Source: an uncultured Pelagibacteraceae bacterium (lineage in GTDB: Bacteria > Pseudomonadota > Alphaproteobacteria > Pelagibacterales > Pelagibacteraceae). Taken from it: a stretch of DNA of 48,869 bases. Both the position numbers and the translations under genes were made by a program. Where the stretch lies: assembly GCA_902546795.1 (NCBI GenBank), contig CACCLK010000005.1, positions 1 to 48,869 of the forward strand, in the 5' to 3' direction. The notes beneath the pieces are model-generated. The model was given only the letters and a program-made list of their open reading frames with translations. It made no database searches and was not told the DNA's origin. Of this stretch, positions 4,909-5,423 are shown piece by piece (the first letter of the stretch is position 1; each line of letters starts with the position of its first letter).

Positions 4909-4985
4909 TGGTTGCGGGGGAAGGATTTGAACCTTCGACCTTCAGGTTATGAGCCTGACGAGCTACCAGACTGCTCCACCCCGCG
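4909..4985 (-). tRNA. Initiator tRNA-fMet (CAT)
   Basis: Read on the minus strand the acceptor is CGCGGGG against CCCCGCA, giving the C1xA72 mismatch that marks bacterial initiator tRNA and blocks EF-Tu use. The D stem is GAGC/GCTC with A11-U24, also an initiator feature. The anticodon loop CTCATAA carries CAT. The anticodon stem is TCAGG/CCTGA, so positions 29-41 form A-U where E. coli has G-C; pairs 30-40 and 31-39 remain G-C. CCA is encoded. It lies 5 nt downstream of the cold-shock gene on the same strand, with no terminator between. Confidence 0.97.
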
Positions 4986-4990
4986 ATAAG

Positions 4991-5194
4991 TTAGGCTTTT
5001 TTAAGATTTATCGCCTGCAATCTCTCTTTGTCTTTTTTAATATCGAACTTAAGTTTCTGTTCCTCTTTCAGTACTTTTAACTTTGAATTCTCAAGTTCTG
5101 ATATATGCAAAAAAATATCTCTGTCCGTTTTATCTTCTTTAATAAATCCGTAGCCCTTTTTTGAGCTAAACCACTTAATTTTACCTGACGGCAT
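4991..5194 (-). CDS. cspA: Cold-shock domain protein
   Basis: A 67-residue single cold-shock domain, an OB-fold that binds single-stranded RNA or DNA. The two RNA-binding motifs are visible: RNP1 as KGYGFI (residues 13-18) and RNP2 as DIFLHI (26-31). The N-terminus GKIKWFSSKKGYGF is typical. Such proteins melt mRNA structure and help translation initiation; whether this one is cold-induced cannot be told. It lies 23 nt downstream of rpsU and has a GGAG ribosome binding site in that gap. The initiator tRNA follows 5 nt after its stop. Symbol by family only. Confidence 0.92.
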   Translation of the reverse strand: MPSGKIKWFSSKKGYGFIKEDKTDRDIFLHISELENSKLKVLKEEQKLKFDIKKDKERLQAINLKKA

Positions 5195-5217
5195 TTAAAC
5201 TCCAAATTCTTTTTAAA

Positions 5218-5412
5218 CTAATATCTACTTTTTAATCTTTGTAGTTTTTTAATTCTCTTAATATTTTCTGTTTTAATTCTTTTTTTCTTTTCTGAAGGTT
5301 TTTCATAATTACTTTTCATCTTTATTATTTTATAAAAACCTTCTCTCTGAAGCTTTCTTTTTAAAACTCTTATCGCTTGTTCTACATTATTATCTTTAAC
5401 TTCTATTTTAAT
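5218..5412 (-). CDS. rpsU: 30S ribosomal protein S21 (bS21) with AUU start codon
   Basis: A 64-residue protein whose core DNNVEQAIRVLKRKLQREG, followed by NYEKPSEK, is diagnostic of S21, which helps the 30S subunit base-pair with mRNA. No ATG, GTG or TTG exists between the upstream in-frame stop and the conserved core. The codon aligned with the family's initiating methionine is ATT: DNNV falls at residues 7-10 when ATT is counted as 1, as in canonical S21. A perfect AGGAGG sits five bases upstream of ATT. I conclude that translation starts at AUU. A sequence error at that base is the main alternative. Confidence 0.9.
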   Translation of the reverse strand: MKIEVKDNNVEQAIRVLKRKLQREGFYKIIKMKSNYEKPSEKKKRIKTENIKRIKKLQRLKSRY

Positions 5413-5417
5413 AAAAT

Positions 5418-5423
5418 CCTCCT
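5418..5423 (-). promoter_or_regulatory. Strong Shine-Dalgarno (AGGAGG) of rpsU
   Basis: A full six-base AGGAGG complement of the 16S 3' end, placed five bases before the ATT. Most genes in this window have weak or no visible Shine-Dalgarno sequence, so this one stands out. It fixes the start of rpsU at the ATT. Confidence 0.85.

Follow-up and report, generated by a model that had tools for sequence, protein, structure and literature searches.

A non-canonical start codon behind a strong Shine-Dalgarno sequence is conserved in rpsU of Pelagibacteraceae

The rpsU locus

The gene rpsU, which encodes ribosomal protein bS21 (S21), lies on the minus strand of a 48,869-nucleotide stretch of DNA from an uncultured member of the Pelagibacteraceae (contig CACCLK010000005.1, assembly GCA_902546795.1), the whole of which is called the window below. 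It occupies positions 5218..5412 (64 codons plus stop), and its product matches the PF01165 profile with 55.7 bits (cut-off 27), which makes it a member of that family; the same profile has one match in the source genome, a 703 kb assembly that is 60.6% complete. Judging from the sequence and from conservation in relatives, the start codon is ATT (5410..5412, minus strand). A Shine-Dalgarno (SD) sequence, AGGAGG (5418..5423, minus strand), is located 5 nt 5' of it, with a predicted pairing energy of -10.3 kcal/mol with the 16S rRNA tail of SAR11 bacteria. On the minus strand, an in-frame stop (TAA, 5427-5425) is followed by CAG GAG GAT TTT and then by ATT (5412-5410), after which the frame continues with AAA ATA GAA GTT AAA GAT AAT AAT and ends at TAG (5220-5218).

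The initial annotation of this DNA had claimed that no ATG, GTG or TTG lies between the upstream in-frame stop and the S21 core, and that ATT stands at the methionine position of the family with AGGAGG five bases before it. Both statements held when the minus strand was read again. A start farther upstream is ruled out by the in-frame stop just 5' of the SD, and an out-of-frame ATG present in the window leader is not constant among the leaders of relatives.

The start codon in relatives

Family f1 of our sample was taken as Pelagibacteraceae, since the named records closest to its S21 carry this name or Pelagibacter. The loci read are part of the matches listed, some supplied by the search tool and others chosen by us, and the named records among them are the best 80 of 414, namely those closest to one S21. 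As the resulting table of 228 rows contained 45 repeats, distinct 90-nt leaders were counted instead (209 from 217 loci), GGGGG runs being scored as SD. L375 is a repeat of L104, and two loci holding unrelated S21s (L115 and L117, from genome G070, with 8% contamination) were excluded from all counts.

These 209 distinct leaders fall into 191 with ATT and an SD, three with ATC and an SD, two with ATA and an SD, four with ACG and an SD, and nine with ATG and no SD. The AUU-type start claimed by the initial annotation is thus conserved in relatives: 200 of the 209 leaders combine a GGAGG-type SD with a codon of the class rejected by initiation factor 3 (IF3), and they show the pattern of an IF3-controlled start, that is, a conserved codon other than ATG, GTG or TTG with no canonical alternative. 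Neither ATG together with an SD nor a GTG or TTG start was found in any of the 209. A canonical codon is absent after the upstream stop in the window, and the few relatives that have one carry it farther upstream, 5' of the SD (e.g., L005). Subsets of the loci give the same picture. The first 60, window included, have ATT in 58 cases, ATA in one, ATC in one and a canonical codon in none. The 80 named records have 78 ATT, one ATC and one ATA, and the enlarged set of 188 loci that includes them has 180 ATT, three ATC, two ATA and three ATG, all three ATG without SD. Thirty loci nearest to the S21 of one ATG genome, retrieved by protein search, comprise 19 ATT with SD, four ACG with SD and seven ATG without SD.

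The start ATT does not behave as an ordinary, drifting isoleucine codon, since it makes up 191 of the 196 ATH starts while representing 57% of isoleucine codons in a sample of genome G063, and since the third codon of rpsU is mostly ATA (205/218 loci). An artefact, in the form of a sequencing or assembly error or of a true start elsewhere, might be suspected because the genome of the window is fragmentary (60.6% complete). However, an AUU-class start stands at the same place in all 12 genera of the family with a locus read, including single-contig genomes and named single-cell records, the SD spacing is near-constant, and the codon 5' of ATT differs in sense between genera. We consider an artefact scarcely conceivable, and this conservation across genera rules out a sequencing error at the ATT. 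As far as sequence conservation can tell, the AUU start is confirmed as real and conserved rather than a one-off, and the comparison shows SAR11 rpsU as a gene that would be translated from the codon class proofread by IF3 (AUU; AUC, AUA and ACG in relatives).

The initial annotation had considered that relatives with ATG at this position would speak against it. Such relatives do occur, in nine of the 209 leaders (L102, L104, L110, L370, L372, L391, L392, L393, and L397), yet every one of them lacks the SD. Two ATG-start genomes are G086, a single contig of 1,308,759 bases, and G095, of 1,456,888 bases. Conversely, ACG stands behind an intact GGAGG in L369, L371, L373, and L374 (the source genome of the last is listed at 3% contamination). 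In a tree built from 122 flanking sequences, from which six loci were omitted as too short (including two of the four ACG loci), the ATG leaders appear at several positions, the deep branches being weakly supported, and L371, with ACG and an SD, is nested within a group with ATG and no SD. The pattern fits an intermediate with both AUG and SD, which would have been resolved either by SD loss or by an AUG-to-ACG change, or else one allele spread by recombination. As the leaders are related by descent, the association between codon and SD is given without a probability. At the level of these leaders, the exchange shows SD and start codon as what would be one unit kept by selection, in which a poor codon goes with a strong SD and AUG with none.

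Two further observations concern the gene itself. The rpsU frame is broken in L130 and L141 (genomes G169 and G270), after ..REGFF and ..RDGFF, respectively, through an assembly error or in reality, and four genomes that are 94-99% complete (G021, G072, G092, and G277) yielded no S21 match, as a result of S21 loss or of an assembly gap.

A strong SD in SD-poor genomes

SD usage was evaluated by comparing SD-like motifs before genes with a well-defined ATG start with those in an upstream control window. Motifs precede 43 of 313 genes in a 400-kb part of G063 (control 21/313), 7/65 in G086 (control 7/65), 10/53 in G069 (control 3/53), and 4/37 in G065 (control 2/37). Comparable figures were obtained for G195, from family f2 (5/59; control 3/59), and G303, from f9 (8/42; control 3/42). 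The window itself, with 10/40 against 4/40 in the control, is less markedly SD-poor than the other Pelagibacterales sampled, and an ordinary alphaproteobacterium, G304, has 13/27 against 2/27. The 16S tail nevertheless reads GGATTACCTCCTTTCT in G063, G065, and G069, so that the anti-SD is intact in these three genomes; a complete 16S match was sought in G086, G195, and G303, and none was found. Most genes without SD together with an intact anti-SD, as seen in G063, G065, and G069, is the combination that goes with rpsU autoregulation in Bacteroidota.

Against this background the rpsU SD stands out, since the sampled SAR11 genomes hardly use SDs although their anti-SD is intact where seen. Located mostly 4-5 nt before the start codon, it has a median predicted pairing energy with the SAR11 16S tail of -11.4 kcal/mol in ATT leaders and of -11.6 kcal/mol in the f2 rpsU leaders, versus -1.1 kcal/mol in ATG leaders. 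The median for G063 genes is -2.1 kcal/mol (control -2.4), with -9 kcal/mol or lower in 14 of 313 genes versus three in the control. These energies place rpsU among the few strongly SD-equipped genes, although not as the strongest. The initial annotation had overlooked this partner feature, a strong SD that is unusual for a genome poor in SDs and that gives way where AUG is used; the finding is stronger than that annotation knew, and the partner of the start codon is the SD, not the tRNA that it had proposed.

Upstream of the SD, the window carries an extended -10-like element (TGNTA type), TGGTA (5441..5445, minus strand), 33 nt 5' of the start codon, and a -35-like hexamer, TGGACA (5460..5465, minus strand). 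TGNTA is present in all 209 distinct Pelagibacteraceae leaders (27-36 nt before the start codon in 207), and RGACA[AT] or AGACTT begins 19 nt upstream of it in 197 of the 203 distinct leaders with both elements. If these elements are the promoter, the transcription start deduced from them probably leaves an rpsU leader of about 15-20 nt, essentially the SD. So short a leader leaves little space for an RNA switch or a protein-binding structure, and points to the SD and start codon as the control site. A structured leader was rejected on the same grounds, and the predicted folds of the region from -25 to +35 average -4.3 kcal/mol, a mean over the first 40 distinct leaders computed without shuffle control.

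Weak rpsU starts beyond Pelagibacteraceae

In family f2, which belongs to the same order, the start position holds ATA in 39 of 40 loci and ATC in one, all with an SD, and GTG or TTG in none of the 40. As GTT, GTC or GTA follows, the exact f2 start is ambiguous (ATA/ATC or the next codon), but it is non-canonical either way. Other alphaproteobacterial genomes, of which we read 88, start rpsU with GTG (43), ATG (22), TTG (13), or none of these (10). The latter ten, from nine families, have ATT, ATC or ATA after GGAG (L159, L160, L165, L169, L171, L175, L211, L213, L216, and L227), and in four of them a canonical codon is present as well, over nine codons 5' of the D-N-N anchor. The proportion of 10/88 is not a random rate, the 88 having been taken from 147 genomes with a match as the eight best-scoring and then mostly weak-scoring first.

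Two controls were conducted. For rpsR, an in-frame ATG is present in 21 of 22 SAR11 loci and in all 30 other alphaproteobacterial loci; eight of the 30 SAR11 loci were dropped for want of a recognized core, and any in-frame upstream ATG was counted, which is laxer than the rpsU test. For rpsU in a wider proteobacterial set (the best-scoring 29 new loci of 80 genomes), ATG was found in 18 of 20 non-alphaproteobacterial loci and in none of the nine alphaproteobacterial ones. From the class counts and these controls, weak rpsU starts look like a trait of Alphaproteobacteria that would be extreme in Pelagibacterales. S21 relatives are also carried by viruses. Among 33 viral contig pieces (L399-L431), read from the printed codons, 29 have ATG and four TTG; of two annotated phage S21 genes (L432 and L433), the one in HTVC008M starts with ATG and the one in Mosig with TTG, preceded by AAAGGAGG. 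No AUU-type start was seen among these 33 pieces and two annotated phage genes.

These distributions bear on a simple explanation by static tuning, under which the strong SD combined with the poor codon merely fixes a moderate S21 output, AUG without SD gives the same level, and nothing is sensed. The reciprocal exchange of SD and AUG, with ACG plus SD beside ATG without SD in close relatives, is what compensatory tuning predicts, and other Alphaproteobacteria obtain weak rpsU starts with GTG (43) or TTG (13 of 88). On the other hand, GTG or TTG would serve this purpose equally, yet they occur in 0/209 Pelagibacteraceae leaders and in 0/40 f2 loci, and the SD pairs only with IF3-discriminated codons. 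One may also argue, although this is not data, that a permanently inefficient start is odd for a stoichiometric ribosomal protein in a streamlined cell. We regard static tuning as a serious contender, if one that falls clearly below an even chance.

A further possibility is an IF3 sensor of the infC type, in which the signal would be IF3 activity or initiation stringency and the output S21, independently of any S21-free ribosomes. In SAR11, infC itself starts with ATT in eight of 30 loci read by eye (L259-L288; genera g5 and g12 only), with GTG in 15, and with ATG in seven, so that a start of this kind is found more consistently in rpsU than in infC. However, such a sensor would be entirely gone from the ATG leaders, which lack the SD, and there is no known reason for S21 to track IF3; we consider this explanation unlikely.

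Linkage with the initiator tRNA and cspA

Downstream of rpsU in the window, and on the same strand, a 23 nt gap separates it from a cspA-like cold-shock gene with an ATG start (4991..5194), which is followed after 5 nt by tRNA-Met(CAT) (4909..4985). Open reading frame reading and ARAGORN support this arrangement as the initial annotation had described it. The tRNA is an initiator, as its C1xA72 mismatch (unpaired), characteristic of initiators, is read directly from the sequence. Among the 206 rpsU-linked tRNA-Met, 203 have the ends CGCG..CGCAACCA. Bacterial initiator tRNAs usually have three G-C pairs in the anticodon stem; all 206 depart from this rule, with TCAGG/CCTGA in 180 and CAAGG/CCTTG in 26, an A-T pair replacing the first of the three. 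A full-length match of at least 92% to this tRNA was found exactly once in each of seven genomes, including the incomplete genome of the window, so the linked tRNA appears to be the sole initiator gene. G000 and G086 contain a second full-length match at 74%, which is presumably the elongator.

The tRNA follows rpsU with a gap of 0-8 nt in 80/80 named loci, 22/24 g4 loci, 4/5 g6 loci, and 1/1 g13 locus. The g4 exceptions have gaps of 118 nt (with a broken rpsU frame) and 647 nt, and the g6 exception has a gap of 62 nt. Gaps of 17-53 nt occur in g3 (9/9), g8 (1/1), g10 (1/1), g9 (3/5; of the rest, one lacks the tRNA and one contig is too short), and g12 (3/4; the remaining one is too short). 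In g1 (39/40, one being too short) and g2 (9/9), the tRNA is located farther downstream, with about 230-240 nt in between, and a recognized cold-shock gene fills this space at 39 g1 loci and seven g2 loci. By contrast, no tRNA was detected within 900 nt downstream of rpsU in g5 (7 loci), g7 (2), or f2 (40).

Thus, of the unit of rpsU, cspA, and tRNA envisaged by the initial annotation, the tight association of rpsU with the initiator tRNA stands, but cspA was seen to intervene in g1 and g2 only and is no fixed member; elsewhere, where the two are linked, the tRNA comes directly after rpsU. The accompanying proposal, that the rpsU start senses initiation in order to adjust the initiator tRNA, fares worse: as g5, g7, and f2 keep the non-canonical start without a tRNA within 900 nt, tRNA adjustment is not the core of the system, and the same absence dismisses the tRNA link as the cause of the start. 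We infer that the initiator tRNA is often co-transcribed with rpsU, but that this addition can be dispensed with.

The linkage could still matter through operon balance, if ribosomes ending rpsU cover the 5' end of the tRNA and rare rpsU translation is needed for tRNA folding or processing. A stop-to-tRNA gap of 0-8 nt, as in the 80 named loci and the 22 g4 loci, lies inside the footprint of a terminating ribosome, and the linked tRNA is the sole close full-length match in 7/7 genomes. However, the start persists in g5, g7, and f2 without the nearby tRNA, g1 and g2 interpose their 230-240 nt (with cspA where recognized), and 10 of 10 ATG-start loci retain the adjacent tRNA. Operon balance is therefore very unlikely in our opinion.

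A possible mechanism

In our favoured reading, AUU and SD would make initiation poor by design and dependent on the SD, the site working as a homeostatic valve on S21. This reading, which comes near an even chance without reaching it, is only slightly ahead of static tuning. S21 is incorporated late into the 30S subunit, next to the anti-SD, so that in subunits still without it the anti-SD may be the most accessible and codon checking perhaps less strict. Such subunits would initiate best on rpsU mRNA, and the missing S21 would then be made, IF3 being the brake and the SD a conditional accelerator. Several reports are consistent with individual steps. S21 is one of the 30S proteins that come last, and its binding is loose (PMC10931766). 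In Flavobacterium, S21-free ribosomes preferentially translate rpsU via its SD, the anti-SD normally being buried (PMC9976891). In Staphylococcus aureus, non-canonical starts behind strong SDs attenuate expression (cvfC1, ccpN, and citZ, about 10% of the AUG level, in poor medium; PMC13009471). Finally, IF3 represses the GTC start of sigR, and feedback in infC relies on ATT or ATC (PMC5472188).

Several points weigh against the homeostatic valve. The rpsU start is taken from conservation and the S21 feedback is our own inference. E. coli S21 has been reported to help the 16S tail pair with the SD, the opposite of what the S21-free step needs (PMC10931766), and it has also been argued to hinder extended SD pairing (PMC13009471). 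The pairing energies (median -11.4 kcal/mol, window -10.3) do not reach the level below -13 kcal/mol found in Bacteroidota, and four of the listed strong-SD genes of G063 exceed its rpsU (-11.4 kcal/mol), whose SD is thus not unique. SAR11 cells can do without the AUU/SD site, as the nine ATG leaders lacking an SD demonstrate. Weak rpsU starts are common outside Pelagibacterales, and the SD-poor background cannot be their whole cause, since the one such genome checked for it, G304, with a GTG rpsU, has ordinary SD use. Lastly, the leaders share ancestry, and a single ATG allele could have been spread by recombination.

A more far-reaching version, which strikes us as unlikely, is suggested by analogy with Bacteroidota. 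Complete SAR11 ribosomes would shut the anti-SD away, and rpsU would be an independently evolved AND gate in which only S21-less subunits pair with the SD and accept AUU. S21 would then be set by a specialized-ribosome circuit, abandoned in some lineages via AUG without SD. If this were true, the most abundant bacteria of the ocean would set their S21 by such a circuit.

Significance

Within the literature searched, which left most subscription papers outside its coverage, no non-canonical rpsU start was described for SAR11 or other Alphaproteobacteria. Characterized non-canonical starts in bacteria are few (PMC5472188), and the present one belongs to a ribosomal protein gene throughout an order of marine bacteria. 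Even for E. coli, the way in which S21 levels are set has been described as unknown (PMC10931766). The SAR11 variants amount to a natural mutagenesis, with AUU, AUC, AUA or ACG plus SD, or AUG without SD, but never AUG plus SD in 209 leaders, and they make this question directly testable with a small reporter set. They also connect rpsU control with SD-poor translation in a lineage other than Bacteroidota. On the practical side, gene finders limited to ATG, GTG and TTG can miss rpsU or assign it a wrong start.

Comparison with known systems

By analogy, SAR11 rpsU may be regarded as combining two known devices, S21-linked SD control and an IF3-class start. The SAR11 S21 matches the S21 of 7jil, which we take to be that of Flavobacterium johnsoniae, by sequence only over chain residues 5-51. 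As in infC autoregulation, a start of the IF3-discriminated class is found in a gene of the translation machinery, but the product is S21 and not IF3 itself, and within SAR11 infC mostly starts with GTG or ATG (22/30 loci), unlike rpsU. In E. coli, the metY-nusA-infB operon co-transcribes initiator tRNA with a translation-initiation gene; there the tRNA comes first and its partner is IF2, whereas in SAR11 it comes after rpsU.

Conserved non-canonical starts are known from other genes. S. aureus cvfC1 (AUU) and ccpN (AUA) resemble SAR11 rpsU in having such a start, attenuating and behind a strong SD, although the genes are different ones, in an organism for which wide SD use is reported, and the available part of that source reports no exchange of SD and AUG (PMC13009471). 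The conserved GTC of Streptomyces sigR is likewise non-canonical, being IF3-repressed and mis-annotated by gene finders, but unlike rpsU sigR encodes a sigma factor, and its start serves the balance with an antisigma factor (PMC5472188).

The closest parallel is rpsU autoregulation in F. johnsoniae and other Bacteroidota, with the same gene, an SD-poor genome, an intact anti-SD and a strong rpsU SD (PMC9976891). The SAR11 SD is shorter (mostly 6-7 matching bases) and its median of -11.4 kcal/mol compares with values below -13 kcal/mol in Bacteroidota, the energy program used here being different from that of the Bacteroidota study (PMC9976891). The Bacteroidota pattern also includes an rpsU SD that is the strongest among ribosomal genes, and an anti-SD occluded by S21, the 16S tail being sequestered in a pocket of S21, S18 and S6 (PMC9976891); in SAR11 such an occlusion would be hypothetical. 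Unlike Bacteroidota, SAR11 adds to the strong SD a start codon other than AUG.
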